Positions 19,447-64,000 of a stretch of 64,000 nt of DNA are shown in pieces (positions within the stretch are counted from its first letter, which is position 1; the number at the start of each line of letters is the position of its first letter). The notes under the pieces are model-generated. The model did no database searches, was not told the origin of the DNA, and worked only from the letters and a program-made list of their open reading frames with translations. The stretch spans positions 248,001 through 312,000 of the forward strand of contig BCKL01000020.1 in the NCBI GenBank assembly GCA_001600635.1. Reading direction: 5' to 3'. The stretch is from Leucosporidium creatinivorum (lineage: Eukaryota; Basidiomycota; Microbotryomycetes; Leucosporidiales; Leucosporidiaceae). Both the position numbers and the translations under genes were made by a program.

Positions 19447-20045
19447 CCTCGACGGTGGGGCCTTGGCCTCTAATGTGAAGGCGAGGAGGCTGGTAGAGGG
19501 GTGAAGAGGGGCGTGTGAGGCGATTAAATTCTACTGTAGCTACTTGGACGGCTCAGGCGGCGAAGACAGCGAGTCGAGGAGATGCGGCAGAGGGCAAGGA
19601 GCTGAGCGTGGCGCCTTTCGCAAGCAGCGGTCCTCGCCGTACGTCGTCGTTGGGGTGCGAGGAGCAAGAAGTCATGAGCTGAGCTCTATTACACATCATC
19701 TTAGCAGTGCGGACTCTCGACGGGCTCTCCAATGCGCCTCACCCAGCGCCGAAGCCTTGTAACGCTCGAGACGAAACGAATGATGTGCAGGAAACTACGA
19801 AGCCAAACACCCAACACCGCCGAGACTGAATCCAGTGCTCTCCAAGCTCACTTCCGTTTCGTCTGCGTAAGGTTGGTCCCCCGTGAGGTGAGCAGAGCGA
19901 GGTCAGCGCCGAATCGCCGAGCATCGCTTCGCTTGACTAATACCCACCAGTCGTAACCGCTCCGTAAGAGTTTAAACAAATAAGGTGTGTAAGCGGCTGT
20001 CCGAAGGCTATGAGGAATGGCTATGAGGAATGGGAGTGACCTTAC
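19447..20045. other. Upstream of VPS45 and 3' flank of F-box copy A1
   Basis: No gene is supported. From about 19860 the sequence resembles the 3' flanks of the other A copies, including the minus-strand motif reading TCGGCGATTCGGCGCTGAC that also occurs after A2 (about 31753) and A4 (about 63790). A short direct repeat is present (AGGCTATGAGGAATGGCTATGAGGAATGG area, 20007-20035, given here only as its repeated TATGAGGAATGG core). Confidence 0.5.
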
Positions 20046-21155
20046 CAGTGGCATACTGCTCCTCGCCGCGAGGGTCGATGCCTCGGGCTCGACACGCCGC
20101 CGCCCAGTCTTCCCACGGGCAGTTGACATCGCCGCGTCCGTACACCCACATGACCATCCTCCATCGCTTCAGCTTCGCCAGCTTGGGCTCGTCGAAGAGG
20201 CGTACCAGCTCGGCGGGCATGCGAGTGGCTTCGTCATGCCCGAGCAGCGAATCGATGTGGAGGAGGACGACGGGCTTTGGGAGGAGCGCTACGATTTGTT
20301 GGATCTCGAGTGGGGTTGGGCGTAGGAGGTATAGGGAGGTGACCGAGGTGCAGGCTTGAACGAAGGCGTCGAGGGAAGAACGGCACTGGCGCCGAAAGTA
20401 GGGGTGGTCCACCGAGGGCAGCATGATCTTGAGGTGGGTGAGTTGGGGTGCTACAGGGAGAAGGATCTGCACCAGCGCGCTCGCGAGGGCGTCCACTGAA
20501 CAGTCCAGCTCGAGACGAGTGAGGTGAGGCTCAGGGACGACCGCGGGCGCCGGGGAAGGGGAGGAGGAAGGGTGGCAGCGCCGTGACGCCAGAGTGGATG
20601 AGGAGAGCCTTCAACATCATTGTAGAAGCTGGGGTTCGGTTCTTTGGCCCCTCGAGAGGCACCCTGAGCTCCAGTCGACGAAGGCCTGCAGCCAGAGCGA
20701 GTCAGCCGGATCGGCTGAACGGAATGCTGCCAGCTGGCCAGCGGCGAGGCTCAGGACTCACCTCGGAGGAGTTGATAGTGGGAAGTCTGGAGCCTCAGCT
20801 CGCCTGAGAACACTTTGAGTACTTGCAGAGGGACGTGGAACCGCTGGAGTACAGCAAGCTGCTGCGCGCCATCTCGTCCGTCAAAGACGATCAAGCTCTG
20901 CGGCGGCGTCGGGGCCGACCCTCGGCGCTTGGAGACGGCTTGGAGATATCTTTTCCATGTGCTGCTGTTGCTCGCAGCCTCGAAAGTGGCGCCCAGGACA
21001 TATTGCGCCGGAGCGCGCCAATCTCGGGCGACGAGCGCTGCTCCCGCGAGCGTGCGTCGTGTTTTGGCTTCCTGATCAGGCCAGTGATCATCGCCGGGGA
21101 CCATCTCGAGGATAGAAGTGAGCAGCTCGGGCGTCAGATCTTGTATGATCGCCAT
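20046..21155 (-). pseudogene. F-box/LRR-like family A, copy A1 (frameshifted)
   Basis: Exon 1 (21155-20762) begins MAIIQDLTPELLTSILEMV, an F-box-like N-terminus, and runs to HYQLLRG. Exon 2 (20685-20046) contains LRR-like sequence and the conserved C-terminal block KLKRWRMVMWVYGRGDV ... WAAACRARGIDPRGEEQYAT. The exons total 1,034 nt against 1,027 in intact copy A4. Near 20550, after LPPFLLPFP, a net 7-nt gain shifts the frame and brings an early TGA. Downstream sequence is still family-like in the correct frame. It is paired head-to-head with B1 and mirrors A4/B2 in the other arm of the inverted duplication. The frameshift could in principle be an assembly error, but the length arithmetic supports it. 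Confidence 0.75.
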
Positions 21156-21760
21156 TTTGGCGACGGGGCTGAGCTCGGCGTTTGGTCGCAGGGCAGGGGA
21201 GGGGTGAGATGTAGCTGTGAGGTTGGGGAAAAATCAGCTCTCAGATCTTCCTCTCGCGATTTGGTGCTATGCGGGCTCATCCGACCTCGAAATCCTTGCC
21301 AACAGCACCCTCGAGCCTCCCTCTCTCGCCCTCGGCTTGCGCTCTTGTCCTGCCACCTGCGAGCAAACCGAAAGCTCTCTTCACCATCAAAGAGCATGAG
21401 AGACTCACCTTCAGCAGCAATCAACGACTCCGAGCAGCAGCTTTCGAGCGTCTTTCCCGAGCACAGCAAGCGTCGCTCTTGTCCTCGGGCTTCGACCGAC
21501 GGGCGATCCAGCAGCGGCGAGCGAAGGGGCGAGGTGCGCAGAGGGGTAAGAGCGAGCTGTAGTACTTTCCTAGCTGAGCGAGCTGTCGAAGCGGGCGAGC
21601 CGAGCGATACGAGCAAGTGATGGCGGGAGAGCAAGGAGCAAACGGACGTTTGAGCAGCTCGGGGTTCGAGAGCGAAGAGGGGTGTTGGATTGAAGTGAGG
21701 CTCTGAGAGCTGTAAAGATGCAGCAAAGTTGATTGAGCATCATTCTTCGCTTCTGCACCT
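21156..21760 (-). promoter_or_regulatory. Leader of A1 with a 194-nt 5'-UTR intron
   Basis: Upstream of the A1 ATG the minus strand has a well-formed intron, 21408-21215 (GTGAGT ... AGCTGAT ... CCTCACAG), three times the usual intron length here. Leader and intron are shared with A2, A3 and A4 (intron lengths 194, 195, 186 and 194 nt). By eye A1 and A4 match at roughly 85-90% across it, better than their LRR coding parts. The remaining ~210 bp to B1 is a divergent promoter. Confidence 0.65.
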
Positions 21761-21970
21761 CGGTAGCCCTACGCCGAAGCCCCCCTCGACCGAGCTTGCC
21801 CTTCGCCGATTCGCTGCTCCGGCGCTCTCTTTCTCTCCCGCTTCTCGCTCGTTTCGCCGCTTCGTGTCTCGACTCGTCGCTTCAGGTGAGTATTGGGGTA
21901 CAGTCCATATCTGAAGCATGATGCTCACCCCACTTCTGCGCCCCTACAGCTCTCTCGTCTCGCTTTCGAC

Positions 21971-23509
21971 ATGTCGCCCACCTCTGCTCGCCTCGTGGAG
22001 TCGCAGGAGGGAGGATCGCTCGTCGCTGCTGGTACTGCTGGAGGGGAGGAAGCTGTTGCTACTGCACTGCGCAACGCGAACGACAACTGCAAGGTGAGCT
22101 CTCTGCCTCTTTACTCCGCCGCAGAAGGAGCAAGCGCTGACCAGCGTCCGAGCGGCTCGTGCGTCTGTTTTGCTGCAGGGTGAGGTCTTGTTCTTGCTCT
22201 CCAGATTTAGTACAGCTATATGGGAGCAGAACTGTATGATTGAGAGGCTCTGAAAGACTCCAAAGCTGACTTGAGCCCATCTCCTTCAGCCGCCAACCTC
22301 CCCGCCGACGTCCTCCTCCTCATCTTCGAGTGGTCAGCCCTCCTCGACGTGAAACGTATTTACTTCGTCTACGATTGGGATCGCTCCGACACTGTCACCG
22401 TCAAAGCGGCCTGCACCGTCTGCAGAGGATGGTCCTTCTCCGCCCGGCGAGTCCTCCACTCGTCCATCCTCCTCACCTCTCTTAAACAAGCTCGTGCCTA
22501 CCTTCACACCTCCCGGATCTCTCCTTCCCTCACTTCTCGCACCGTCGCCATGATTCTCGACTCCAACCTGCCCATTCCACGCAATCCGGATCATTCGGCG
22601 CACGAGAGGGAGAAGGAGATCGCAAGGGCATTTATGGAAGCTCTCGCTGCAGCACCCAATCTACAAAAGCTCGGCGTCGGGTCGCTGGATGAATCGGCGC
22701 ATGATGATCTAGTGGAGCTGATTGGAGGCCGTCCCCTCCGAGCTCTCGCCTACGTCCCGCCCAACTCTCAAACTCGGAGTCGCAACCAACGCTCGCTAGA
22801 ACACGCGGTGATCAAGGTGGACGACTTGCCCTTCTTCCTTCCATCATCCTCTCTGCGCTCCCTCGCGCTGCGCAACACCTGGGACGAGAAGAAGGACTGG
22901 AACCTGCCCTTTCCTCCTGCGCCAGCTGTGCTGGCCTCAACGCCGAGCCATGTTACGACCCTCATCCTCAGTTGCAACAACGTTCCTGTCCTCCTAGCAA
23001 TCGTCACCGCCTGTGGCCCATCTCTCATCCGCGTCCAAATCTACGTGGAGCGCGACATCCCGCCTGCGGAAGCCATCGCCGCCTGGAGCACGACGACCGA
23101 CACCCTCATTGCCTGGGAGCACACGAGCCACACGGAGCAAGTGGGGCCAGGCGAGACGCCCTGGATCCATCGCGTTTTACCTCGCTTCAAGAAGCTCGAA
23201 CGTCTGTCGGTTACGCTCCGCGACGTCGGTTCCGAAATCGCCAGCCTGGCTCCACCCTCGCTCCGCGCCATACAGCTTGTCCTGTACGAGTCGTCCCTTG
23301 CAGAGCTTCTCGAGGAGTGGTTGGAGGCTTCTCCCTCCTGGTCGCCAGATCTCCACCTCGACATCAATCTCATTGGAATCAGCGACAAGGATTTGGAGCA
23401 GCTGGGGGACAGCTACGAGGTTATGGCAGAGCTCGAGGCCAGAGGTCTTCGAGTGGACACAGACGACTACTCTTGGGGAGTTGACGCGCTGTTCTTCGGG
23501 TGGGAATGA
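21971..23509 (+). CDS. F-box-like protein, family B, copy B1
   Basis: Three exons (21971-22093, 22179-22209, 22290-23509) give 1,374 nt and 457 residues. The 31-nt middle exon encodes GEVLFLLSRF and is required to keep frame. Introns are 85 and 80 nt with GCTGAC branch sites. After a short acidic N-terminus (MSPTSARLVESQEGG) comes an F-box-like stretch LPADVLLLIFEWSALLDVKR ... AACTVCRGWSFSARRVLHSS, then LRR-like leucine-periodic sequence (SHVTTLILSCNNVPVLLAIV, KKLERLSVTLRDVGSEIASL). It ends DDYSWGVDALFFGWE. A 68-nt intron lies in the 3' UTR at 23513-23580. An SCF substrate-receptor role is inferred from the F-box alone. The twin is B2 at 60213-61748. Confidence 0.8.
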
Positions 23510-23915
23510 GAGGTGAGTTTGACCAGCGCGAGGAACTGAGCGATCGCCGAGCTGCTGCTGAGGCCAACGCCTTCTCGCAGAACTGAGCCAAATAGCAGAC
23601 GGAGGAGCTGATGTGCTTAAGGCTTTGAGATACTGGAATTCATTTTTCGTGCTTGTCAATGTCGAGGAGGGCGACTCGCCCGAGGCTCGGCGCTCGTAGC
23701 TGCTCGCTCGCGTCGCGCTGTCGAAGCCGAGAGCCGCGAAGCCGGTCGAGAGAGCGTCACGAATACTGATAGACCGTCGTTACCCCATCTTGACTCTACG
23801 CGGCCTACAGAACAAGCGAATCCTGCGACTCGACCCCTCGACGTTGCTCTGCTCGGCGAGGAAGAAACGGGTCAGCTGCTGTCGAGGACGAAGCCGATGA
23901 GACTACTCACCCATC

Positions 23916-25100
<1,185 letters not shown>

Positions 25101-25137
25101 CTAGTCCGAGGCGCTTCTATCGTCCTACAGCTCTAGA

Positions 25138-27913: not shown

Positions 27914-28424
27914 GGACCGGTGTTGCGTAGTACATGAGGATGCACTATCAGACGCGATATCACACTGACTATTCCCGAGCGTTTGTGAGGGTTGGCGAAC
28001 CTCCTGAAGCGAGCAATCGACCGGCGAAGCAGCTGCTCGGCGAAGAAGGCAGAGGCTCGGAGTTGCTTGCGAACGGCCGATCTTGAAAAGCCGAGACTTC
28101 GAAGGAAGCTCTCTGATATAGTGAATAACGCGCTCTGTTGTTCTGCAGGTCGCTAGACGACTTTTCCTGGAGTGGAAATTCTCGCGCGCCGCCGTTCAAA
28201 AGCCCTGAGCCGCAAGTCAACTCTTGCCCTCCACGTCTACCGCCCTCACCCGTCAACGTCCGTATGTCACTGCACCATGATCCCATGAAGTTTGGCAGTA
28301 CCCCCCTGCCATTCCAGCCGTTTGCGCGACCCCGATTGCTGCCGCCGTCGCTAACTTCTCTTCCTTCTCTCTCCTCGCTCTCTCCTTCGTTCTACGGCGC
28401 TTCTTGACGTCTTACAGAGCAGCC
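27914..28424. other. Intergenic, COG6 3' flank and RPS14 promoter
   Basis: About 510 bp with no supported gene. A pyrimidine-rich stretch (about 28345-28400) lies just before the RPS14 ATG, as expected for a fungal ribosomal-protein promoter or leader. Confidence 0.5.
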
Positions 28425-29536: not shown

Positions 29537-29749
29537 GCGAGCAACGTCCCGAGCGACTCAGCTGCTTCGGCAATCGTTTTCTTCTCCCTGCTGCACCCAA
29601 AAAAGGCTCCTTCCTTTTTCAACCCCTTGTCGACGGTGCAGAGGCGGATTTATACTTTTGCTACAGAACCCCCTTCGTCCTTTCCTTACATGTTCTGGCT
29701 GGACGATTAGTTCGGCGATTGTGTGTAGGGCGTTTCCCGTTGATGCAAG

Positions 29750-30518
29750 TTGACGCAGAAGCGTGGTTGTTGGGGATCATCGTATCGTTGCGCTCGCGAA
29801 GGCCAGAGCTGTCTTCAAGAACAGATTGCCGAAGAGTCCGCTTGGGAAAGAGCGAAGAGGCTGCTCGGCGAAGGCTCGGCCGACAATTCGAAGCGTATCG
29901 CGCTGCGGAGAGTCAAGGCAGCACCTGAACAGATAAGGCTGAGTGAATCTGTCTCTCTTCAGCGCTGCCCCTCTCACGCTACAGCAGACCTCCTCTCTCG
30001 CCTTGCTCTCGAGCCAGAACGTCCGTCCCGCTCCTTGCTCTCCCGCCATCACCTGCTCGTCTCGCTCGCGTCGCCCTCTTTGACAGCTCGCTCAGCTGCT
30101 AGGGAAAGGACTGCAGCTCACTCGTAAACCTCTGCACACCTCGCCCCTTCGCTCGCCGCTGCTGGATCGCCCGTCGTTGGAAGCTCGAGGACAAGGGAAC
30201 CGCTGAGCTAGGACGAAACGCTCGGAAGCTGCTGCTCGGAGTCGACGGTCGCTGCCGAAGGTGAGTACTACTGCTCTATGAGAGAGCGTGAGATGCTCTG
30301 TGTGTGCTCGGAGATGGGTGCAAGGGCGAGACTGGTCGACGAGCTTGACGAGGAGGGGCGAGTCGAGCTGAGAGGGAAGCGTCGAGGGGCTGGAGGGACC
30401 TGAAGAGCTACAGAGTTCAACAAAAAGCTGAGCTGACGCATCTCGATCCCCCCAGCTACAACCCTCCCCATCGCCTCCCATTCGACCCAACGCCGAGCTC
30501 CAGCCCTTCGCCGCCGAG
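29750..30518 (+). promoter_or_regulatory. Leader of A2 with a 195-nt 5'-UTR intron
   Basis: Sequence from about 29990 matches the leaders of A1, A3 and A4, including the block around CTGCTGGATCGCCCGTC (30162 on) and an intron at 30261-30455 (GTGAGT ... GAGCTGACG ... CCCCAG). No ATG-initiated open frame of note precedes the A2 start at 30519. The interval 29537-29990 shows nothing else. Confidence 0.6.
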
Positions 30519-31692
30519 ATGGCCGTTATCCAAGACCTGCCTCCCGAACTTCTTCACCGCATTCTGGAGCTCGTTGCAGAGGGACACGGACAAGCGGAAA
30601 CGCTCCGTACGGCAAGGACAACTCTTGCTCGAGCCGCCCTCGTTGCTCGAGACTGGTGCGCTCCTTCGCAGGCGCAGCTGGCGAGGCTTCGCACGGTTGC
30701 AGGCGCTAGGAGCTCCCTCCGAAAGTACGCAGACGACCTTCGAGCGTCAGCTAGCGCCGGCCTTAGACGCTTGAAGCGCATAGACATTCCGCTGGACGGC
30801 TCCGAGGCTCAAGCGCACGTTACCCTTCTTTCGGACCACGGCGTCCAGCTCGACGAATTAGCCCTGAAAAGCAACTTCTCTCGCATCGGACCATCTCATG
30901 AGCGTCTTTTACTTGGTGTGTGGCTCAAAAAGCATACTCATGGACGTCTCACTGACGCACTCTCCCGCAGGCATACGGCGCTTGGAGCTCGGATGGTGCC
31001 CAAATCGGCCTGTCCGCGCTCAGACCAACGTTTTCCGCATGAGCTGCCCCATGGCTCTCGAGGCCCTCCGCATCGAGGCATTCGCACAAGAGTTTCCAGC
31101 CCGCCTTCTTCCCCTGTCCAACACCGCGCCCTCCCTTCGTCAGCTGGAGCTCGGTGATGTCAATTTTCTCTCATCGCGACTCCAATCGCCGCTTCAAGAC
31201 ATTGCGGCCCAGCTCCGCCACCTGTCGGTGTACTTCCATGAGCCACGTCCTAGGGAACCCAGCTCCTCCGAGTGCTTCTCGCTCGACCCCTTCCTCTCCG
31301 CGTGCACCTCTCTCATTTCCCTCAGCCTCCAAAACGTTGGCTTGACTGAGCTCAATCATCTCACCCTTCTACTCGCCGCCCAGCCTGTTGTCTTGAACGT
31401 CCGCGTCAGCGTGGAGGAGCCACCCTCCCCGAGCCTCGCCGAAGAGCTCATTAAGCTTCTAGACCAGCCCTCGATGGCCTCGCTACGTCGTTAGAGATTG
31501 TCGTGGAGCGCATCGCGAGAGTCGGGGTTTGGCCTTTCGCTCGAAGGAGACGCCAAAGAGGAATGGGAAGCAGCCTGTCGAGCTCGAGGGATTGAGCCTC
31601 GCGGCGACGAGCGCTACTTCACCGGTGACACCTCTCCTCCGTCTACTGTGCAGTCACAGCTCGCTAACAAGTATCGTTGATCTGCAGACTGA
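30519..31692 (+). pseudogene. F-box/LRR-like family A, copy A2 (nonsense change)
   Basis: Exons 30519-30915, 30971-31624 and 31688-31692 total 1,056 nt (352 codons). The F-box-like start is MAVIQDLPPELLHRILELVA with VARDWCAPSQ. Leucine-periodic sequence follows (LRQLELGDVNFLSSRLQSPL, LDPFLSACTSLISLSL). At 31492-31494 a TAG stands where the other copies have Trp (A3 LKRWRLYEA, A4 LKRWRMVMW, here LRR-stop-RLSW). Reading frame and family homology continue after it to WEAACRARGIEPRGDERYFT and the usual tiny last exon (AC plus TGA). The truncated product would lack only about the last 27 codons counting the stop, so partial function cannot be excluded. Confidence 0.75.
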
Positions 31693-32034
31693 TCTCGGAG
31701 CTGCTCAAGACGGATGCATGTGCGCTCAGAACGAGAAAGGCGGGGCTCGGCGATTCGGCGCTGACCTCGTTAGCTTCGCAGGACCGTCGAAGAGCTCGCG
31801 AGGACATGCAAGATGTGTAGCTTGACGATATGCTGTAATTCAACACGCTTGACCCGCTCTACAACTCGCCCACCTTTGTCGAGATGCGAGCCAATTCGAT
31901 TCTTATGCTGCTTGCGCTTGCATCGCTATACGTAAAAGGGATGAGAGAGATAGATCAAGAGAGAGAGAGAGAAAGAACTAGAAGGGGTATAAACTACTGA
32001 AGAACCGAGACGCCAAGTCCAACTGCTCAACGAA
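31693..32034. other. Intergenic with GA microsatellite
   Basis: 3' flank of A2 with the family tail motif (TCGGCGATTCGGCGCTGAC, about 31753-31771), then a GA-rich simple repeat at 31943-31974. No gene is supported. Confidence 0.6.
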
Positions 32035-33404: not shown

Positions 33405-33604
33405 GGTCGCTGTCGACGAGCTCCGACAAGCCTAGCAGGGCGATGAAGCAAGCAGTAGGGCGCGATTCCTCCTCTCGCTGTAGTCCAATCGAATCGCCAA
33501 GTCGAAGTGTGAAAGTAGTACAAGGCCAACCCTCTTCAGCTCATTTCCCGCTCGACCCTCTCTCCCTCCGCTCGTTCACTTCCATCTCGCTCCGACTCGC
33601 CAAA

Positions 33605-41231: not shown

Positions 41232-44631
<3,400 letters not shown>

Positions 44632-45307
44632 ACTACATCCCCGAATGCTCGGCGGACGTTTTCTGAGCGTTCCGACCGATTTTGGAGAAGTTGTAGCCCT
44701 TTGCTTGCGCTTGTTCTCTGCCCCGTTCTTTGCTTCATACCTCTACTAGATTGTAACATCAAATCGTGCTGTTCCATGCGACTTAGTAGACGAGAGAAGG
44801 CTGAAGGCGAGGGAAAGGAAAGTTTAACGCTGAGAGAGCTTCGGGATGGGGCTGTAGGGCTAGTAGAGCCTATCTGAAGGTCTCAGGTCTCCAAGCTATC
44901 CTTGCTACAGCATCGCGCCACCGAGCGTGCTCTCGGTGCATAACGCGCAGGAGGAGAGCAGCTCGGCGAAGGCTGATCCTCGGCGCTCGGCAGCTAACAA
45001 GCTCGCGCACGTCTCCGGATCCTGGGGCGACGTCAACTGACGCTCTGCAACTCTGCTTATTGCAGTTTACTACGTTTCCTACCCTATTCGAGCGTAAGGA
45101 GGACGACCAGGCGACGTAAGGGGTCAACGCCGAGAAGATGTGGAGAGACGGAGTTGTAGGCTCTGGAGCTCGTCCAAACCCCCGATTTACTTCGCCTATT
45201 ACGCTGCACCTATCAACGTGCTCTGCAGCAAAGGCCTGTGCGCCCTTCCAACTTGGTCTTCGCGCTCGGAGCTCTCGCTTTGCCTTCAACCTCTCGCTTC
45301 AACCACG

Positions 45308-47784: not shown

Positions 47785-48323
47785 GGCGAGGTGTGTTTGC
47801 TATCATTAGTTATAATCTTGAGATTTGCTTTGTGTAACGGGCTTTGCTGTTGTCGCTGATCGTTCGCGTGTGTCCCCGTCAAAGCCGAGCCGTTCGCGCC
47901 GAACGAGAGATCTCCGACATCCTCTGCATGCTGCCCATCCTCTGCATCAGCCGAGCCACACGCTGCTGTAAACTTGAGTTCAGATTCTCACAGATCTCAG
48001 TGAGCGGACAAAAGCAGCCGCCGGCGACTCCTTCCCTTCCTTCGCACTCGGCCTCTCGTAGCAGAGATCGGGTACAGAAGCAGACTCCATCACAAAGCAG
48101 TATCATCTCGAGTTGTGTACAAAGCTAGCGCCGTTACCGCACAGCACTTCGTCCTCTTTCTGCTCTGCGTAAGCGAAGAGAAGTTAGCGCCGGATCGCCG
48201 AGCGATGCCTCTCTCGTCCTGAACCCACCGGTATCTGTCTTGAGCAGCTCCGATATTGACCTACGGAATAGCGATGCGTGTTAGCGATCTTTGACTGCCA
48301 AATAGAGGAAGGAGAGCACTGAC
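47785..48323. other. Intergenic and 3' tail of copy A3
   Basis: 47785-48120 shows no supported gene. Minus-strand 48323-48184 continues A3 homology: an intron from 48323 to a CGTAG acceptor, then an exon-like stretch that does not stop at once as in the other copies, and a further intron-like GTGGGT ... GGCGCTAAC ... CGCAG. Confidence 0.45.
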
Positions 48324-49454
48324 CCGTGAACAAGCGCTCGTCGCCGGGAGGCTCGATTCCTCGGGCTCGGCAGGCTTCCTTCCACTCTTCCCACCAGCGC
48401 ACAGTCTTAAAAGCGCCTACAGAGTAGATATCCGCTTCGTACAATCTCCAGCGCTTCAGCATCGACAACCGAGGACAGGCGAGGAGGGCGGTGAGGTCGG
48501 CGATGACCCTGATCACCTCCGCCTCGTCCGGCGAGCGACGGCTTAGACCAACCTTCATGAGTACCAGTGGAGCCGAGAGTAATCCTACCAGGAATAGGAC
48601 ATCGGACGAGGTGACGCCGCACAGGTCGAGGGTGGTGAGAGACGTGCAGGCAGGGAGGAAGCGCTCGAAGGAGAAGGTGCTGCCGTTGGAGTCGTTTTGA
48701 CGAAGAGAGGGCAACGTTTCGAATCGTTCGAATTCGAGCTTGAGGTATCTTAACTGAGAGGCTACCTCCCTCAACGGGGCCTCGAGCCCTTCACCCAGAG
48801 CATGCCACAGAGTGAGCTCAAGGCGGGTGAGGCGAGGGGCCACGGCGGAAAGGGGAATAAGGAAGGAGGGGAGCTGGGTGAACGCGGAGCCGTTGATGAT
48901 AAGCTGGAGGTTCTCCAGAGATAGAACCCGAGGTGGACTGGAAGGTGTCTGGACCTCCGTCCCCAGCCTCAAGGCTCGGAGCCCTATGGTGCAGGAGAGG
49001 GTCAGCTTGATCTCGGTTTAGATAAGTAGGAGGGTACTCACCTTGCAAGAGGGCCAATGAACCTCACTCAAATCCATCAACTGCTTCTCAAAGACGTATA
49101 GTTCTTGCAGATCGACCTCATGGCGAGCCAGAAGAGCGAGCTGTTCCGCCGAACTCCCGCCCCCTTCGACATGCCAGCCGCCGAGGTCCAACCGCTTCAT
49201 GCGCCGCAAGCGGATCCCGTTTGGCATCATAAGCGCCCTGAGATACCTCCTCCATGTCGCATCTCCGTAAGATTCGAAGCGCGACGAAGGAGCGCCTGCG
49301 ATGGAGCTCGCCAGCTCTGAGCGACGAGGGCGGTGCGGGAGAGATAGGTCCTCAGCTCCTGTCGACAAGTGATGGGATCGACGTGGGCGTCTTCTGTGCC
49401 GAGGTCCAGGATGCGAATCAAGAGCTCGGGCGGTAGATCTTGGCTGACGGCCAT
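48324..49454 (-). pseudogene. F-box/LRR-like family A, copy A3 (frameshifted)
   Basis: Exon 1 (49454-49042) begins MAVSQDLPPELLIRILDLGT and keeps frame through LVAQSWRAPSQALLRRA. Family homology then continues in another frame (ATWRRYLRALMMPN). Exon 2 (48983-48324) carries leucine-rich sequence (APRLTRLELTLWHALGEGLE, LPACTSLTTLDLCGVT) and the conserved end LKRWRLYEADIYSVGAFKT ... EACRARGIEPPGDERLFT. The two exons sum to 1,073 nt, which is 2 modulo 3, whereas A2 and A4 give 1 modulo 3, confirming a net one-base-type shift near 49270. It lies 3' to 3' with the BAR-like gene. It is the most diverged copy. Confidence 0.72.
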
Positions 49455-50203
49455 TTCGGCGGAGGCTTTGAGCTCGGCGTTCGCTCGAAGGGGAGGCGAT
49501 GGGAGGGGTGTAGCTGTGGTACAGGCAAAGGGCCATTCCTAAGCTTCTGCTATCGAACTCTGTATCGCTGCAGACGCGAGATCCTTCCCAGCAGCACGCT
49601 TGAGCCATCCTTCTCTCGCTCTGAGCTTGCGCTCTCCTCACTTCTCCTCCGAGCAGCTCGGAAGCGTCTCACAGTCACCGAGCAGACTAGTACGCTCACC
49701 TCCAGCAGCAATCGTCGACTCTGAGCAGCACCTTCCGAACGTCTCGTCTCAGCACAGCGAGCGTCTCGCTTCTCCTCGAGCTTCCAAAGGCGGGCGATCC
49801 AGCAGCAGCGAGCGAAGAGGCGAGGTGAGCAGAGGTTTACGAGCGAGCTGTAGTCCTCTCCTAGCTGAGCGAGCTGTCGAAGAGGGCGAAACGAGCGTGA
49901 CGAGCAAGCGATGGCGGGAGAGCAAGGAGCAGACGGACTGAGCGGCTCGGGGTTCGAGAGCGGAGAGGGGTGTTTGGAAAGTGAGACTGCGAAGGCTCCA
50001 GCGTTGGAAGAGAGGTGGCTTGAGCTCTGCACTGCTCTTCTGTACCCTGCAGCCTCAGCCCGTCCCTTTACCGACCGAGCTCCTTTCACCGAATCTTGAC
50101 CGAGCTCGCACTTCGACTCTATCAGAGCGCCGCAGAGCTTGAGAATAAGCCCAATGGTATATGCAGTATAATACAACCCCTCCGGCGCCCGACGGCACCT
50201 CAT
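49455..50203 (-). promoter_or_regulatory. Leader of A3 with a 186-nt 5'-UTR intron
   Basis: The minus strand shows the family leader from about 50000, the block around CTGCTGGATCGCCCGCC and an intron 49699-49514 (GTGAGC ... ACCACAG). Homology to the other leaders extends to about 49990, beyond which nothing is recognised up to the end of the next gene at 50204. Confidence 0.6.
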
Positions 50204-52201: not shown

Positions 52202-52454
52202 CGTAGCGTGCGAGAGTGCTCAGTCGAGTGTATAGCAGCAGCAGACCAGATTCTAGCTGTCCTTGGAGTAAATGCGAGTCGAGATGAGAGACGAGATGAA
52301 GTGCAGAGAGAGCTGAACTGGATTTGGGCCGGACTTGGTCGAGCAGGAAAGGGGCAGAAGAGGTGAAGCTGAGAGAGTCTACTTGAGCCCTGGAGTGCGA
52401 ATCAGTGTTATTGACGGTTTGCGAGCTCATTCGTTGGCGTCCCAAGCCCTCAAA

Positions 52455-53672
52455 GGAGCGGCGCCGAGGATCAGCCTTCGCCGAGCTCTTCTCGTCCTGC
52501 AACTCGTCAAGGGCGAGCACGCTCGGTGGTGTGATGCTGTAGCAAGGATAGCTCGGAGACACTTGATACCAACACTCAGGCGCCATCAGCCATTCAGCCC
52601 CATTCCGGAGCTCTCTCGGCGCTGGCCTTTCCCTCTCCCTCGCCTTCGGCCGTCTCTCGTCCGCGCGGTCGCATGGAACAGCACGATTTGATGTTACAAT
52701 CTAGTAGAGGTATGAAGCAAAAAACGAGGAAGAGAACAAGCGCAAGCAAAGGGCTACAACTTCCCCAAAATCGGTCGGAACGCTCAGAACACGTCCGCCG
52801 AGCAGCTGGGACGGTATCTGCCGTAGCTTCAGTATCTCCCCCCGCCCCTAGAATATTCGCCCCTACCCCCACGTCCTCCTCCGTATCCCCTTCCTCCTCC
52901 CCCGCCTCGACCGCCGAAAGCAGTGAGCTCTTGCAGTTGAGGAGGGACGACCTGCTTGGCGTCCGAGAGGATCTTGACGAGGTCACGGGCGAGCTCTGTT
53001 GGTTGTGAGTTGGTGGAGAGGTAGGAGAGTAGGAGAGGAAGAGGTCAGCGACAAAGCCGAGATCTAGGGGAGTAGTAGGAAGACTCACTCGACTGGTCGG
53101 GAGAGAAGTACGAGTAGGCGGTTCCCTTGGCGCCGGCGCGGCCCGTGCGGCCGATGCGATGAATGTAGTCTTTGGGAGAAATTTGTGGATTGTGTGGTCG
53201 AGGAGTGGTAGGCGAGGTGGAGGGAGGAAGGGAAGGGAAGGGAGAGCGGATGGGGAAAGGTCAGCTCCAGCTCGAGTGGGGTCAAGATGATGTAGAATAG
53301 ACTCACCCTCGATTCCGTTAGGCTAAAGATGCGAGAGAAGGCGGGGTAGAGGAGATGAGGTGGTAGGAGGAGGGAGAACGAGACAAGTCAGCTCGACTGC
53401 TCGGCGAAGGGCAGCGACGCGCCGCTCGAAGAAGAGGAAGGCTCGGGCGAGACCAAGAACTCACCATATCGTAGTTGATGACGTATCCGATATCCTTGAC
53501 ATCTGAGTACGCGGGAAAAAGCGAACGAGAAGGAGAGAGGGTCAGTCAAGCCGAAGGCAAGCTATCTCGGATGCGGTGGGTCGAGTCGTCCAATGGGTAG
53601 TCGAGGGAGTCGGTAGACGATGGTCGAAGAGGGCGGAGCTCTGTCTGACTTGCGAATCGAGACAGTGCCGTG
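52455..53672 (-). repeat. DBP2 3'-end inverted duplication, copied arm
   Basis: Reverse complement of 43795-44985. It includes the last ~160 nt of the DBP2 long intron, the final exons with their introns and the 3' flank. The left end lies next to the 5' flank of the 50204-52201 gene, the right end close to the 3' end of U2AF. Divergence is concentrated at the Gly-rich C-terminal codons and towards the two ends. Confidence 0.88.
52829..53502 (-). pseudogene. Partial DBP2 copy (C-terminal exons only)
   Basis: Minus-strand exons encode [38 protein letters not shown] and YFSPDQS as in DBP2, then [20 protein letters not shown] and an RGG tail ending GGGRY with a TGA at 52829-52831. There is no upstream helicase core, start codon or promoter of DBP2 type, so it cannot make the enzyme. 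Yet splice sites and frame are intact, and the RGG tail differs from the parent ([12 protein letters not shown] versus GSRGGYGRY). This suggests a recent copy or repeated gene conversion with the parent. It could act as an antisense or recombination partner, but nothing here shows that. Confidence 0.8.
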
Positions 53673-53880
53673 CGTGGAAGCTGAACACGGGAGTGGAGTG
53701 AGGCGGGAGCAAGGCGAATGGGGCTGAGTTTCGTGATGCTCGCTTAGCTCTCAGCGCCGGTCAGAGAGAAACAGAATAAACGTATCGTTGATTTCCTTTT
53801 GGATTTGGGGAGACTAAACAATCGGTCCTCCCGCTTCTCGGCGCACTGCTGGCCGATCCTCCCATCGTCGGCGATGTCGA

Positions 53881-56391
<2,511 letters not shown>

Positions 56392-56561
56392 TTTAGTAGG
56401 AGCTCTGTAGCCTGGTAGGTCGACCGAGAGATGAGCGTAAGAGGGAGACCTTCCACTTGGCCGTCAAGTCGTTTTCCGCCGCTAAGCTTGGTTGAGCTTG
56501 AACTTGAACCAACAACTCGCTCGGCTCTACTTGGCTTCAGCTTCCGACTGACAGAGGCACG

Positions 56562-59500
56562 ATGGCACGCTTTGGTTTAAGCGATACAGAATCAGATTCA
56601 GAGCACTCGCAGGCGTCAGAATCAGCTACAACTTCCCCTCCTCCTCCTCCTCCCTCTCGTCGAACCAACAAACGCTCGTCGCGCTCAGCCTCGTACGCTT
56701 CAACAGCTGCACAGTCGGGCTCAGAAGATGATGAACAGGGTACAGAAGATGGTACACAAGAAGACGACGAGGACGCTCCTCCTCGCGCTTCCTTGGCCTA
56801 CTCGGATGGCTCCCACCATTCAGACGACGACGACGAGCAAGACGACTTCATCGACAACTCGCTCTCACCGCCTCCTCGCCAACGAAGGAGATCTACCAGG
56901 GATCCCTCGCAGTCCTACTCGCTTTCTGTAGTCGACCGCTCCTCCTCGCCCGAGCTCCAACAGCAACGACCAACGCGTCAACAGCCTCAACCCTGGGCTT
57001 CAAAGCTCAAGTTGGAGCCCAAGAGGGTCGCAGTCATGCAGGCTTCATTCTTTCAACAATCCGACTCGGCGCCGGTAGATCTGCAGCAGCAGCGCAAGGA
57101 GCCGAGCAGGAGCGTTGGAGCTGCTCTCCCTGCCGTCGCTTCTCCCTTCGTCGTGAGTTGCGATTCCTCGGGACTTCGCTCTTGCATCGCATCAGCTAAC
57201 CGATCTTCCATCCGGTACAGACCCGCGCCCCTGCTCCCGCCCCAGCGCCCTCCCTCCCCGCCCCTCCCATCGACCCGACCCCCTTCCGCCCCTACCGCAC
57301 CTACTCTCGCGTCCCTCTGACCGAATCCATCACCAACAACAAGGAAGGGAACCTCGTCGATCTGGGATTGGCGCTCGGCCGGAGCTTCCGAGTGGGATGG
57401 GGACCAAAGGGCGAGATGGTCATGCTCAAACAGGGGGGCGCGGGAGGGCTGTATGGAGCGGATGGCAAGGGTGGGAGCGCAGAGTTGAGTGTGAAGAAGT
57501 TTAAGATGCTTTCCGTGCGTTGCCTCTTCTTCTTCTCTTCTCTTCTCCTACCTCATCCTCTTCGGCTCGCTGACCTGTCGACTCGGCCCGGCCCTCACAG
57601 GACCCGCAAACCCCTCCTCACCTGCGCCTCCTAACCCTCCAACTCTCCCACACACTAATCACTCCCGGCTCCACCTCCACCTCAATCCCCAGTGCCCTTC
57701 CCTCCCCTCACCTCCGATTCCACCATCTCTCCTCCACGCTCCCCTCGACCCTCCGCTCCCCCGAAGCCGACCTCTGGCGCCTCGGTCAAGCCCTCTTTGA
57801 CGAGATTCCCGATCTCGAGATCCCACCCACTTTGACCGCGGATGAGGCAAAGTATGTCGAGATGATGAGAAGGAGGGGCAAGTTGGAGGGGTGGTTGGAG
57901 GATGTCGTGCGGGGGGAGGTGGAGGAGGAGTTGAGGAATTTGGGCTCGGCGAGTTCGGCGGCGAGGAGGGTGTTTACCCTTCTTTCGGGGCATCAGATTG
58001 AACGCGCGTGCGAGGCGGCGGTGGAGGCGGGGGATTTGAGGCTCGCTACTCTGGTCGCGCAGGCAGGAGGCGACGACGAGTTCCGCGAGGACTTGTATCT
58101 CCAACTCGCCAAGTGGAGGGAGTATAAAGTCGACAGTCATATCGAGCCGGCGTACAGGAGGGTGTACGAGCTTTTGTGCGGGAATGTTGGAGTGAGCGAG
58201 GGCAGAGGGAAGGGGGATAAGGTCGATGGATGCGAGGAGATAAATGTTGCTGAGGGGTTGGGGTGGAAGAGGGCATTGGGATTGCACCTCTGGTACGGCA
58301 CCTTCCAATCACCAGTAGCTACCGCCGTAGAGCGCTACGACGCCGCCCCGACCGTCGCTCCTCCTACGCCTTCCTACCTTCTCTCCCCTCCTCCCTCCTC
58401 CTCCTCCTCAAGCACCACCACCTGGGCTCCCTCCTCAACCGACGCCCCTCTGGACCCATTGTACCACCTCCTCAAACTCTCCGTCTCCCCCACTCACTCG
58501 CTCGAAGCAGCCCTCCTCCCCCGCAACTTTGGCTCCTCACCACTCGACACTCGCCTCCCTTGGCACCTCTACATCATCCTCTCCCGCGTCCTTCGGAGGA
58601 GGGATTTCGAGGATCGGGTGGAGATTGATCAGGAGGAGATGCGGGAGGAGGAGGAGGAGGAGGCCGAGGGGAATAGTGTTAGAGCGGATTTGTTGACGGT
58701 GGGGTATGCGGATCAGTTGGAGAGACTGGGGATGTGGGAGTGGAGCGCTTTTGTGCTGTTGCATTTGGAAATGGTGGAAGGGTGCGTTTTGATCTCCCTC
58801 GCGCTTCGTTCTCGGCGCCGAGCTGATGTTCTCCCTCCCTTCTTCGCCCTGTTCCCTCACTCGCCCATCTCCCCGTCGCATTTACTCCTTAAACACAAAT
58901 TCGCCGCCCTCGCGTTTTCAAACCGTCACAGCCGCGCCGCTGCCATCCGCGCGCTCCTCACTCGCAACGCCACGGGCATCAACGACGAGACGTTCGCTTT
59001 CCTCACCGAGACGCTCAAGATTCCTCAGACATGGCTGTATGCCGCTCAGGTGCGTTTTCCGTCTTGCCTCTCTCCCTTGTCGAGCTCGGTCGCGTACTTA
59101 CATTTCTCCCTTCCGCCTCTCTCTCCTTGTCTTCCCTCCTCTTCAATCGCTAACCTCGACAATCGACCTCATATCGCCTCACTCATCGCTCACATACACC
59201 CCATCGAACAGGCCACCGCCGAGCGCTACAACCTCGACCTCTTCTCCGAGTACCGCCTCTGCCTCGCCGCCGAGCAGTGGAGCCGAGCGCACGAGATCGT
59301 AGTCATCCACCTCGCGCCTGAGGCTGTCATTCGTGGAGATCTGGGGCTGGTGAGGAGGTTGTTGGAGTGTATCGATGAGCGGGCTGTTGAGGGATGGGGT
59401 GAAGGGGGACAGGTGAGTTGGCCTCTCTTTTGGGCGCCGCGCCGAGCAGGCGGGACGAATGCTGATAAGGGGATGGGTGGACGAACAGGTCTTCCTCGAC

Positions 59501-59929
59501 TACATCACCTGCCTCGACTCGCAACTCTCTCGCCAACGTTCTCTCGCCACCAATGGCGGCTCGAACCCCACTCCTGCCGACCGAGGTCAACTCCTCGCTG
59601 TCATCGAAGCGGTGCAGCATTTCGCCTCTCGTCACGATCTCAAGACCAACGCTGAGAGGAAAAAGCTCAAGGTCGCGGTGGCGGAGATGCAGAGTCGGTT
59701 GATGGTTGTTAGCAGGGGGGTGGAGGAGGTACGTTGCTCGCTTTCCTCTCCTGCTTTCGCCGTCGCCCTCCATCTCGAGGTTCATGCTGACCTCGACTCT
59801 CCGTCACAATTACAGTACCTCGCTCGCATCCAGCCCTCCACCCTTCAAGAAGCAGATCGACTCGTTTGGGTCCAGGGAGCCAACTCGAACTTCTTGGCTA
59901 ACTCGCTCAAGGCGGCTTGTGCGGCGTAG
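56562..59929 (+). CDS. Nup96-type nucleoporin (Nup145C homologue) as a separate gene
   Basis: The protein starts MARFGLSDTESDSEHSQASE, which resembles the N-terminus that Nup96 normally acquires after autocleavage of a Nup98-Nup96 precursor (mammalian SKYGLQDSDEEE). An acidic/Ser-rich region follows, then LTESITNNKEGNLVDLGLAL and GRSFRVGWGPKGEM, the conserved start of the Nup96 fold, then a long alpha-helical part (HQIERACEAAVEAGDLRLAT, LATLVAQAGGDDEFREDLYL, AERYNLDLFSEYRLCLAAEQ). It ends ...NSLKAACAA with TAG at 59927-59929. About seven introns. It is a Y-complex subunit (with Sec13). Upstream lies U2AF, only 170 bp away and divergent, so no Nup98 part can be attached here. Confidence 0.85.
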
Positions 59930-60212
59930 AGGTAAGGATCGGGGTGCACGTAATAGAAGGAGGGGTTTGTGATTGACTCAGCAGAGCAGACTGATCGTGA
60001 GACCGAGCGAAGATCGAGTGAGCAAATGGGCGCCGACCTTCGCATCAAATCGCCCATTTCGAGCCCGACTAAGCTGAGTCCCAGTATCTAGAGCTCTACA
60101 GCACCTCGCTTCCTCGCCCGCTATTTGCCTCCGTTCTGCGAGGGGAAGAAGACGTCAGCTCCAGCGCACGCTCGGCGATCGCTCACTTCCTCGCGCTGGT
60201 CAAACTCACCTC

Positions 60213-61748
60213 TCATTCCCACCCGAAGAACAGCGCGTCAACTCCCCAGGAGTAGTCGTCTGTTTCCACTCGAAGACCTCTGGCCTCGAGCTCTGCCATC
60301 ACCTCATAGCTGTCCTCCACCTCCGAGTCCTTGTCGCTGATTCCAACGAGATTGATGTCGAGGTTGACATCTGGCGACCAGGAGGGACAGTCCTCCAGCC
60401 ACTCTTCCAGAAGCTCTGACAGCGATAACTCGCACAGGTCGAGCTGTATGGCGCAGAGCGAAGGCGGAGCGAGGCTGACGATTTCGGAACCGACGTCGCG
60501 GAGCGTAACCGACAGACGTTCGAGCTTCTTAAAGCGAGGTAGAAGGCGATGAATCCAGGGCGTCTCCCCGGGCCCCACTAGCTCCGTAATGCTGTTGTGC
60601 TCCCACGCTACGAGAGTGTCGGTCGTCGTGCTCCAGGCGGCGATGGCTTCCTCGGGCGGGATGTCGCGCTCCACGTAGATTTGGGCGCGGATGAGAGATG
60701 GGCCACAGGCGGTGACGATTGCTAGGAGGACAGGAAAGTTGTTGCAACTGAGGATGAGGGTCGTAACATGGCTCGGCGTTGAGGCCAGCACAGCTGGCGC
60801 AGGAGGAAAGGGCAGGTTCCAGTCCTTCTGCTCGTCCCAGGTGTTGCGCAGCGCGAGGGAGCGCAGAGAGGATGATGGAAGGAAGAAGGGCAAGTCGTCC
60901 ACCTTGATCACCGCGTGTTCCAGCGAGCGTTGATTGCGACTCCGAGTTCGAGAGTTGGGCGGGCCATAGGCGAGAGCTCGGAGGGGACGACCTCCAATCA
61001 GCTCCACTAGATCACCATGCGCCGATTCATCCAGCGACCCGACGCCGAGCTTTTGTAGATTGGGTGCTGCAGCGAGAGCTTCCATGAGCGCCCTTGCGAT
61101 CTCCTTCTCCCTCTCGTGCGCCGAATGATCCGGATTGCGTGGAATGGGCAGGTTGGAGGCGAGAATCATGGCGATGGTGCGAGAAGTGAGGGAAGGAGAG
61201 ATCCGGGAGGTGTGAAGGTAGGCACGAGCTTGTTTGAGAGAGGTGAGGAGGATGGACGAGTGAAGGACTCGCTGGCCGGCGAAGGTCCATGACTGGCAGA
61301 CGAGGCAGGCCGACCTGACGGTGAAGGTGTCGGTGCGATCCCAGTCGTAGTTGAAGTGAGTACGCTTCATGTCGAGGAGGGCTGACCATTCGAAGATAAG
61401 GAGGAGCACGTCGGCGGGGAGGTTGGCGGCTGAAGGAGATGGGCTCAAGTCAGCTTTGGAGTCTTTCAGAGCCTCTCAATCATACAGCTCTGCTCCCATA
61501 TAGCTGTACTAAATCTGGAGAGCAAGAACAAGACCTCNCCCTGCAGCAAAACAGACGCACGAGCCGCTCGGACGCTGGTCAGCGCTTGCTCCTTCTGCGG
61601 CTGAGTAAAGAGGCAGAGAGCTCACCTTGCAGTTGTCGTTCGCGTTGCGCAGTGCAGTAGCAACAGCTTCCTCTCCTTCAGCAGTACCAGCAGCGACGAG
61701 CGATCCTTCCTCCTCCGAGTCCTCGAGGCGAGAAGAGCTGAGTGACAT
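60213..61748 (-). CDS. F-box-like protein, family B, copy B2
   Basis: Exons 61748-61626, 61540-61510 and 61429-60213 (1,371 nt, 456 residues) match B1 exon for exon, including the 31-nt middle exon. An ambiguous base N at 61538 falls in the third position of a GGN codon, so the residue is Gly whatever the base. The F-box-like part LPADVLLLIFEWSALLDMKR ... ACLVCQSWTFAGQRVLHSSI is clearly diverged from B1. From about residue 95 to 290 (for example SSLRSLALRNTWDE, PNLQKLGVGSLDESAH) the two are almost identical, and they diverge again towards the C-terminus. It ends DDYSWGVDALFFGWE. A one-codon length difference (KDSEVEDSYEV versus KDLEQLGDSYEV) accounts for the size difference. It is head-to-head with A4. 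Confidence 0.8.
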
Positions 61749-61749
61749 G

Positions 61750-62564
61750 TCGAAAGCGAGACGAGGGAGCTGTAGGGGAGCAGCAGGTATGTCAGCCATG
61801 TGCTTCAGCTGTAGCCTGTTTAAATGCTCACCTGGAGCGACGAGTCGAGACACGAAGCAGCGAAGCGAGTGAGAAGTGGGAGGGAAAGGGAGGGAGAGCG
61901 GCGAATCGGCGAAGAGCAAGCTCGGTCGAGGGGGGCTTCGGCGTAGGGCTACCCAGGTGCAGAAGCGAAGACTGGTGCTCAATCGACTCTACTACATTCC
62001 TAAAGCGCCCACAGCCTCGAATTCCTCCCGACACCCCTCTGCCCTCTCGAACCCCGAGCTGCTCAAACGTCCGTCTCCTCCTTGCTCTCCCGCCATCACT
62101 CACGTCGTCGGGGCCGACTCGCCCTCTTCGACAGCTCACTCAGCTAGCATAGGACTACAGCTCACTCGTACACCTCCATCACCTTCGCCCTCTCGCTCGC
62201 CGCTGCTGGATCGCCTGTCGGTCGAAGCTCGAGGACAAGAGCGACGCTTGCTGTGCTCGGAAAAGACGCTCGAAAGCTGTTGCTCGGAGTCGTTGATTGC
62301 TGCTGAAGGTGGGTCTCTCGTGCTCTTTGATGGTGAAGAGGAGTTTCGGTTTGCTCGCAGGTGGCAGGACAAGAGCGCAAGCGGAGGGCGAGAGAGTGAG
62401 GCTCGAGGGTGCTGTTGGCAAGAATCTCAAGGTCGGAGGACCCCGTATAGCTACATAAATCGAGAGGAAGATCTGAGAGCTGATTTCCGCCCACCCTCAC
62501 AGCTACATCTCATCCCTCCCCTGCCCTTCGACCGAACGCCGAGCTCAGCCCCTTCGCCGCCGAG
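61750..62564 (+). promoter_or_regulatory. Divergent promoter and A4 leader with a 194-nt 5'-UTR intron
   Basis: The leader intron 62309-62502 (GTGGGT ... AGCTGATTTCC ... CCTCACAG) is the same length as in A1. The reading frame upstream of the A4 ATG stays open through the spliced leader (…ESLIAAEATSHPSPALRPNA) but has no ATG, so I treat it as untranslated. The stretch near 61990-62100 is shared with the other three leaders. Confidence 0.65.
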
Positions 62565-63725
62565 ATGGCCATCATCCAGGACCTCCCGCCCGAGCTTCTG
62601 ATCCGCATCCTCGAAATGGTTGCAGACGACGATCACTGGCCTGATCAGCAGGCCAAAACCAGACGCACGCTTGCGGGAGCGGCGCTCGTCGCCCGAGACT
62701 GGCGCGCCCCAGCTCAGCACGCTCTCGAGTGTACATACCAGGCCATTACTGGCGGGAGACGATGGGAGGAATACCTTAAAGCGCTCTCCGAACCTCGGGG
62801 GGCTCCTCTGGCAGCACCGGCTCGCTTGCTCGTCGTCGGCTGTCACGAATCAGATGTGGGCGCCGAGCTCGCCCTCCTCCAACGCCGCCATGTTCGCCTG
62901 CAGTGGCTCAAAGTGTTCGACTGGGGACTACACCTCACATCTGAGCATTATCCGCTCCTTCGAGGTGCGTGCCAGCTCCGTTCGGGCTCTCAGAGAGATC
63001 TCCTAATCTTTACTGCCATCCACCGCCCAGAACTCCGACGATTGGACCTCTCCAGGCCGATCAATGTATACCACGACTTTCAGCCGTCGGCACCAATGAT
63101 GCTGGAAGCCCTGTACATCCACTCTTGCCTGGAAGCACTCCCTCCTTTCCTCCTCCCCTTTCCCGCTGTCGTCCCTCGCCTCACCCGCCTCGAGCTGGAT
63201 TGCTCGGAGGACTGCTTCGGCCGCGAGATGATAACCACCCTCCGGCCGGTAGCGCCGCAGCTCACGCACCTCGAGATCGCGCTCCCCGCGCTGGACGACC
63301 CCAACTTTCGGCGCGAGTGCCGTGCTCCTCTCGACTCCTTTATCCGCGCCTGCACTTCGGTCACCTCCCTCTACCTCCTACGCCTAACCCCACTCGAAAT
63401 CCAACAAGTCGTGTCGCTCCTCCCACAGCCTCTCATCCTCCTCCACATCTACCTCCTGCTCGGGCACGACGGAGCCCCTCGCATGCCCGCCGAGCTGGTA
63501 CGCCTCTTCGCCGAGCCCAAGCTGGCGAAGCTGAAGCGATGGAGAATGGTCATGTGGGTGTACGGACGCGGCAATGTTAAGTGCCCGTGGAAGGACTGGG
63601 AGGCGGCGTGTCGAGCCCGAGGCATCGATCCTCGCGGCGAGGAGCATTATGCCACCGGTGAGTGCTCTCCTTCCCCTATCTGGCAGTCAGAGATCGTTGA
63701 CACGCATTGTTGTTCCGCAGACTAA
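62565..63725 (+). CDS. F-box/LRR-like protein, family A, copy A4 (intact)
   Basis: Exons 62565-62964, 63031-63657 and 63721-63725 give 1,032 nt and 343 residues. The last exon is five bases (AC plus TAA), so the protein ends HYATD. Both introns (66 and 63 nt) are multiples of three without stops, so unspliced RNA would also be open. The N-terminal F-box-like MAIIQDLPPELLIRILEMVA ... ALVARDWRAPAQ is followed by leucine-periodic segments (RHVRLQWLKVFDWGLHL, LRRLDLSRPI, PRLTRLELDCSED, APQLTHLEIALPALDDPNF, SVTSLYLLRLTPLEIQQVV). The C-terminal block KLKRWRMVMWVYGRGNVKCP, WEAACRARGIDPRGEEHYAT is shared by all copies and is a useful family signature. The substrate is unknown. It is the only member without a disabling change. 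Confidence 0.8.
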   Translation: MAIIQDLPPELLIRILEMVADDDHWPDQQAKTRRTLAGAALVARDWRAPAQHALECTYQAITGGRRWEEYLKALSEPRGAPLAAPARLLVVGCHESDVGAELALLQRRHVRLQWLKVFDWGLHLTSEHYPLLRGACQLRSGSQRDLLIFTAIHRPELRRLDLSRPINVYHDFQPSAPMMLEALYIHSCLEALPPFLLPFPAVVPRLTRLELDCSEDCFGREMITTLRPVAPQLTHLEIALPALDDPNFRRECRAPLDSFIRACTSVTSLYLLRLTPLEIQQVVSLLPQPLILLHIYLLLGHDGAPRMPAELVRLFAEPKLAKLKRWRMVMWVYGRGNVKCPWKDWEAACRARGIDPRGEEHYATGECSPSPIWQSEIVDTHCCSAD

Positions 63726-64000
63726 GCTTGGAGCTGCTCAAGGCGGACACCGGTGAGGTTTCAACGAACGAGAGGGAGCTCGGCAATTCGGCGCTGACCT
63801 CTCTTCGCTTTTGGGGGCCGGAAAGAGGACGGAGTGCTGTGCGGTAGCGGCGCTAGCTTTGAAGACAACTCGAGATGACACTGCTGTGCGATGGAGCTTG
63901 CTGTTGTACCCTATCTCTTCTGCGAGTGGCGAAAAGCCAAAGGAAAGCAGGGAGCCAAGCACCCGTGAGATTCGACTCGCTGCTTCTTCGGCCCACAGGA
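63726..64000. other. 3' flank of A4
   Basis: Contains the family tail motif (TTCGGCGCTGACCTC, about 63788) and sequence similar to the tails after A2 and A3 (GGAAAGAGGACGGAGTGCTG). No gene is supported to the window end. Confidence 0.5.

Follow-up and report, generated by a model that had tools for sequence, protein, structure and literature searches.

Inverted copies of a divergent F-box/LRR-like gene couple in Leucosporidium creatinivorum: probably old paralogues, partly patched by gene conversion

In the usual sense of the term, a segmental duplication is a stretch of at least 1 kb that is present in copies of at least 90% identity. Here I discuss two inverted arms in the genome of the basidiomycete Leucosporidium creatinivorum, each carrying a divergently oriented couple of genes, the F-box-like gene A and the leucine-rich repeat (LRR)-like gene B (A1 and B1 in arm 1, B2 and A4 in arm 2), which had been taken for one such duplication and which are probably old inverted paralogues, partly re-homogenised by gene conversion in B. 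The window, meaning the whole stretch of 64,000 nucleotides that was analysed, is positions 248001-312000 of contig BCKL01000020.1 (hereafter C20; 587,149 bases) in a single assembly of 27.7 Mb and 63 contigs; G+C content is 59.6% and introns are short. One comparison system for such copies is the set of young Caenorhabditis elegans gene duplicates in inverted orientation, as summarised in Katju et al. (2009; PMC2728529). Spaced and diverged inverted repeats have been described in PMC10164571 as interacting in yeast, strongly so in single-stranded DNA. For F-box genes themselves, a basidiomycete table in PMC4469406 counts PF00646 at 7, 18 and 12 in three Microbotryomycetes and at 43 in its Agaricomycetes column, and among the titles listed in searches on fungal F-box expansion none describes the A/B family discussed here.

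The inverted arms and their genes

The original prediction described an inverted match of a divergent gene pair with arms about 36 kb apart, and self-BLAST of the window, a repeat search and a global alignment all bear this out. The self-BLAST pairs 21004-23642 with 62716-60075 in inverted orientation (89.2% over 2653 bp) and 20033-20622 with 63670-63094, also inverted (80.8% over 590 bp); the repeat search recovers the same arms, about 36-43 kb apart, with an ungapped part of 1499 nt at 92%; and in the global alignment of 19897-23650 with the reverse complement of 60061-63803, 3093 of 3710 columns are identical (83.4%), with 77 gap columns. The match is not continuous as proposed, 20623-21003 being missing from the BLAST alignments and 20623-21155 only 60.0% identical, and the outer limits given for it, 19860 and 63860, are not homologous: a short block common to both arms sits just inside 19897 and 63803, and in the window self-BLAST the flanks of the arms do not match each other. 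The 3' flank of A4 matches A3, a family member between the arms (63587-63930 with 48051-48394, 79%), and A1 has no match beyond 63670. Neither the overall identity nor that of the best 2653 bp reaches the 90% of a segmental duplication, and the tracts that rise to 97-99% are about 200-600 bp long. Among the matches listed in a genome search, which set a lower bound, the full A-B unit occurs at high identity in these two places only.

A1 (20033-21672, minus strand) points leftward and B1 (21746-23642, plus strand) rightward from a common intergenic region, and their inverted paralogues A4 (62045-63803, plus strand) and B2 (60075-61970, minus strand) mirror them in arm 2. Splice sites were read off the sequence for A and B genes alike, and by these signals both genes have an intron in the 5' untranslated region (5'-UTR), and B has two more, one in the coding sequence (CDS) and one in the 3'-UTR. 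A1 would consist of a leader exon at about 21409-21672, a 5'-UTR intron at 21215-21408, an ATG at 21155, exon 1 to 20763 and exon 2 to about 20044, and B1 of a leader at about 21746-21885, a 5'-UTR intron at 21886-21949, a CDS at 21971-22093 and 22289-23509 and a 3'-UTR intron at 23513-23580 (GT at 23513, AG ending at 23580). B2 has its ATG at 61748 and its CDS at 61748-61626 and 61430-60213; A4 has a leader at about 62045-62308, an ATG at 62565 and a CDS with one intron that runs to about 63659. The claim that structure is preserved in both arms holds insofar as the introns, the divergent intergenic region, both leaders and the B 3'-UTR intron are recognisable in each, and fails insofar as identity is uneven (60-99% by segment) and the A1 frame is broken. 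The reading frames of A4, B1 and B2 are open; exon 2 of A1 has a frame-breaking insertion, and its spliced translation stops after 182 residues, where A4 aligns over 343. Because of this break A1 is probably a pseudogene; an intron spliced round the break was looked for by eye, and no fitting GT-AG intron was found.

A lone N at 61538, the sole ambiguous base in the window, falls within the CDS intron of B2 in the most similar tract of the arms, and it invites the suspicion that one arm is the assembler's duplicate, as already raised in the original prediction, or a chimera. The arms are separated by 556 base differences over 20033-23642, besides the 77 gap columns, and their outer flanks are without mutual match; arm 2 is therefore no assembly copy of arm 1, there being too many differences for that, and an artefact of this kind is very improbable. 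Repeat-induced point mutation was also considered and rejected, since the substitutions comprise 282 transitions and 274 transversions, with no transition excess.

Patchwork divergence and probable gene conversion

The picture of one intact, preserved segmental duplication does not survive a comparison of the segments, whose synonymous divergence (dS) ranges from 0.02 to about 1.6. Identity between the arms is 82% in the 3' part of A, falls to the low value already given in 20623-21155 (mostly A exon 1), and is 88.5% in the UTR and the A 5'-UTR intron; it is 88% in the A leader, 73% in the gap between the leaders, 91% in the B leader and 70% in the B 5'-UTR intron; and in B it is 93% in exon 1, 99% in the CDS intron, successively 94, 81, 97, 87 and 96% along exon 2, and 79% in the 3'-UTR. 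In the B coding tract at 22473-23078 (plus strand), 588 of 606 positions are identical and dS is 0.02-0.08 in three parts, beside tracts in which it is 0.24 (22340-22472) and 0.48 and 0.28 (two parts of 23078-23410); elsewhere dS is 0.28 and 0.16 at the two ends of B exon 2, 0.07 in B exon 1, 0.32 in the 3' part of A and about 1.6 in A exon 1. Expressed as synonymous differences, some 8 of 160 sites in 22472-23078 compare with 28 of 111 in 22340-22472 and 23078-23410 together (Fisher p=2e-6) and with 65 of 99 in A exon 1 (p=8e-27). Similarly, the CDS intron of B1 (22094-22288, plus strand), which shows no unusual folding (z -0.04), is identical to arm 2 at 192 of 195 positions if the N is counted as a difference and at 193 otherwise, against 46 of 66 in the B 5'-UTR intron (p=9e-11). 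A test free of segment boundaries, run over 21004-23642, gives longest exact runs of 92, 90, 80, 71 and 70 nt; the longest run averages 56 nt over 2000 shuffles and reaches 92 at p=0.011, and the third longest never reaches 80.

Relationships change from segment to segment as well. A third A-B couple lies at C20:382541-386005, and in the leaders, the inter-leader gap, the B 5'-UTR intron and B exon 1 it and the two arms are about equidistant (70/69/68% in the B 5'-UTR intron), whereas over 22473-23078 identity is 97% between the arms and 56-57% to the third couple. Since the segments differ in their relation to the third couple, they seem, to judge from sequence, to have different histories. 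Conversion was expected to leave adjoining segments discordant in both neutral divergence and relationships, and this is what is found; I infer it from the patchwork of similarity between the arms. A divergent A-B couple would have been copied in inverted orientation, long enough ago for dS to reach 0.24-0.48 in the less similar coding segments besides A exon 1; parts of gene B were then probably overwritten from arm to arm, A exon 1 would either have stayed unconverted or have been replaced from a more distant paralogue, and the A1 frame broke. The B CDS intron is likely a converted tract, perhaps in part a read-assignment effect.

Could a single, fairly recent inverted segmental duplication look the same, with selective constraint alone responsible for the differences between segments? 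The arms do align as a single inverted block in which gene order and exon structure agree, and the leaders and B exons may well be constrained; however, divergence at synonymous sites and in introns changes several-fold or more from one segment to the next, the B CDS intron is better matched than its two flanking exons, and the third couple is equidistant in the leaders and not in the B body, so that this explanation is already disfavoured and I consider it unlikely. The reading of old paralogues with conversion in B has points against it too. The A-side 5'-UTR intron does not fit equidistance, being 89% identical between the arms and 67% identical to the third couple; the segment boundaries of the Fisher tests were set after the alignment had been seen; equal leader distances could also stem from constraint; dS values above 1 are unreliable; the N at 61538 marks ambiguous reads in the very tract that is most similar; and because one assembly was analysed and no relatives, the order and direction of events are inferred. 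As for the F-box/LRR identity of the couple, the curated cut-off of the Pfam F-box profiles (PF12937/PF00646) is reached by none of A4 and the six other A proteins scanned, B1 and B2 have no F-box match in the Pfam scan, the AlphaFold models are of low confidence (mean predicted local distance difference test score, pLDDT, 63.8 for A4 and 53.4 for B1 exon 2) and the top Foldseek rows belong for the most part to other LRR proteins (NLR and cytoplasmic-lattice chains).

The intervening block and the orientation of similar copies

The region between the arms had been described as a stable block of housekeeping genes. Of the ten open reading frames (ORFs) of the block that were scanned, seven have Pfam matches: thymidylate synthase, COG6, a Ras-family GTPase, a CBM1 protein (fungal cellulose-binding domain), a DEAD-box helicase, an RRM protein and Nup96. 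The block also contains two A-family members and an inverted helicase fragment, and the description is thus wrong in part. A2 (30018-31781, plus strand) has one in-frame TAG in the second half of its tblastn match and no adjoining B gene was detected; A3 (48030-49988, minus strand) has one TAA in its tblastn match, and its frame from the ATG ends after 75 residues. The 3' part of the DEAD-box helicase gene (43788-44986, plus strand) is the source of the fragment, a truncated copy of the 3' end at 52461-53672 (minus strand) that is 1.2 kb long and 90% identical overall, reaching 99% over 562 bp including introns. These helicase copies, inverted and 7.5 kb apart, are a better recombination candidate than the A-B arms. 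Short direct repeats occur at 9683-9829 (55 bp at 93%) and 41490-41632 (59 bp at 85%), the latter falling in the glycine-rich frame with which the helicase region starts.

The arms were also thought able to recombine, and a crossover between them would invert the intervening 36 kb. That this happens in living cells, so that the block occurs in both orientations, gains something from 2.6 kb of inverted sequence at 89%, and from the budding yeast work (PMC10164571), which reports that in wild-type cells inverted Alu repeats 30 kb apart still led to more rearrangements than arise spontaneously and that divergence of up to 25% was tolerated in single-stranded DNA. However, the arms share no exact match longer than 92 nt, the same paper has recombination in duplex DNA dropping exponentially with divergence and scored gross rearrangements and not simple inversions, and no second configuration appears among the matches listed for the one assembly. 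The inversion by arm crossover is possible but unsupported and would probably be rare at this divergence, and that the block exists in both orientations is in my judgement distinctly unlikely.

A broader question is whether long similar copies tend to be inverted. The self-comparison of C20 covers 303,992 of its 587,149 bases, and among matches of at least 300 bp the ratio of inverted to direct is 17:11 at 80% identity or more (p=0.35), 10:1 at 85% or more and 8:0 at 87% or more, for which the binomial p is 0.008, or 0.016 for seven of seven if one pair is treated as non-independent. The bias is lost when shorter matches at 87% or more are admitted, with 9:4 at 200 bp and above (p=0.27) and 9:6 at 100 bp and above (p=0.61). 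On contig C24, six pieces (29.3 kb of 467,960) were compared, picked for the family members in them, and at 87% or more over at least 300 bp all three of their rows are inverted, one event accounting for two of these. Searching the genome with one piece brought up one direct row of 97% over 370 bp, another direct one at 84%, and inverted ones at 85-86%; a search with another gave no further row of that length at 85% or more besides itself. The cut-offs were fixed after the list had been seen, pairs within the family are not independent and assembly collapse of direct repeats could produce the same picture, so the evidence for an inverted-orientation bias is at most suggestive.

On C20 the two long pairs of highest identity are both inverted. 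One, C20:114683-116229 with 118786-120320 (98.6% over 1547 bp, 2.6 kb apart), contains in both copies a frame that I take to be RPL3-like. The other, C20:137673-140125 with 172381-174836 (97.4% over 2459 bp, 32 kb apart), begins in the 3' ends of two A-family genes and runs into a further frame, presumably DHHC-type.

The gene family, its leader and known systems

A tblastn search with A4 returned 126 pieces (118 of 145 candidates were scored), which merge into about 77 A-family loci, a count that depends on the analyst's own merging rule: 26 on C20, 26 on C24, 10 on contig C6, six on C28, four on C17 and five elsewhere. With B1 as the query there were 21 pieces, including the three couples on C20 and weaker ones elsewhere. 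The A genes of C20 (14 on the plus and 12 on the minus strand) often form neighbouring same-strand pairs in its left half, and gene units are scattered on both strands among ordinary genes along about 355 kb. The A gene of the third couple (C20:384880) has a stop at codon 5 and matches the A gene at C20:332607 in inverted orientation (91% over 1867 bp). The latter region, C20:331073-338861, has two A genes in inverted orientation with sequence resembling the B-side leader, although a tblastn search with B1 gave no convincing B gene in it. C24 has a second family cluster, in which 246306-248597 and 258045-260349 form an inverted pair (89.6% over 2333 bp), and many C24 and C6 copies have blocks in common outside the protein matches.

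The leader exon (264 nt in A1) and the 5'-UTR intron (194 nt in A1) are common to 16 of the 24 C20 A genes whose upstream regions were extracted; the six C24 pieces had no long match to this leader, giving one match of 40 bp and one of 70 bp. Over 120 pairs the mean pairwise identity is 57% in the intron and 75% in the leader exon, the latter biased upwards since the other eight genes were dropped for lack of a long match to the A1 leader. At fourfold sites of exon 1, 1053 of 2396 comparisons agree (44%; 91 pairs of 14 copies), and leader identity exceeds the fourfold figure in 89 of the 91 pairs. None of the 16 leader exons contains an ATG, where composition would predict about 40 in all, and the five other permutations of these letters occur 15-36 times, although the copies are related and these counts are not independent trials. 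Among the 16, the leader donor is not GT in copies A91 and A332, and the acceptor is not AG in A205. The splice signals and the lack of ATG lead me to view the leader exons as predicted 5'-untranslated sequence, scanned by ribosomes and probably under constraint; homogenisation by conversion is an alternative source of part of the conservation. Coding function was considered and rejected, since length differences between copies change the frame (by eye) and there is no ATG. RNAalifold found no conserved fold in the leader (-8.7 against -12.9 +/- 2.9 in 60 column shuffles, z +1.4), and Rfam gave no gathering-level match in the window and none up to E=1 in 20900-22350.

As to what the proteins are, the F-box label of the original prediction is plausible for A and weaker for B. 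PF12937 matches A4 at residues 4-51 with 18.4 bits against a curated cut-off of 24.3, and it stays below the cut-off in all six other A first-exon proteins scanned, out of 19 such proteins (best 22.0 bits, weakest 14.0); B1 has a sub-threshold LRR_14 match only (13.4 bits against 40). The A4 model has a pLDDT of about 42-48 across most of its first 100 residues. Among Foldseek matches to the PDB with E<=10, none of 671 for A4 and 19 of 663 for B1 reach E<=0.001, and these 19 include F-box/LRR chains (e.g., D3 and SKP2) at low TM-scores; a profile search of the PDB with A was empty up to E=1. A is likely F-box/LRR-like and B plausibly so, and from weak F-box matches and low-confidence LRR-like models both are probably substrate receptors of an SCF-type ubiquitin ligase. 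Because the A members scanned score below the Pfam cut-offs, domain counts could miss the family.

The arms are known in kind, and the two leads that come out of their analysis are the possible inverted bias of long copies and the conserved leader. Both could be united in a cassette-like system, a repertoire of F-box/LRR-like receptors in which conversion among interspersed inverted copies generates diversity behind an invariant 5' leader; long inverted copies would persist in it since they can exchange sequence without loss of the intervening DNA, long direct neighbours being lost by deletion. I mention this as a speculation that is very unlikely to hold as a whole. More immediately, a duplication that looks young and inverted can be old and patchily kept similar, and claims of age or inversion drawn from a single dot-plot would mislead. 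If the inverted excess, which at present depends on the length cut-off, held across the whole genome in a long-read assembly, the origin and persistence of interspersed duplicates in fungi would become directly testable. The ATG-free leader stays conserved in genes that have otherwise diverged, a hint of shared control in a family which standard domain counts could overlook.

Set beside the C. elegans duplicates (PMC2728529), the similar inverted copies of C20 differ in lying 2.6-86 kb apart with other genes between them, in belonging to a fungus, and in involving a divergent two-gene unit. They resemble primate core duplicons such as the GOLGA repeats at 15q25, which the title of PMC6436712 links with inversions, in being dispersed copies within one chromosome region; unlike those duplicons, the C20 units are shorter and much more diverged, and no inversion was seen. 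Finally, with their many diverged F-box-like members they recall the plant F-box families with lineage-specific expansion (PMC3719486 and PMC3030570), here in the genome of a fungus.

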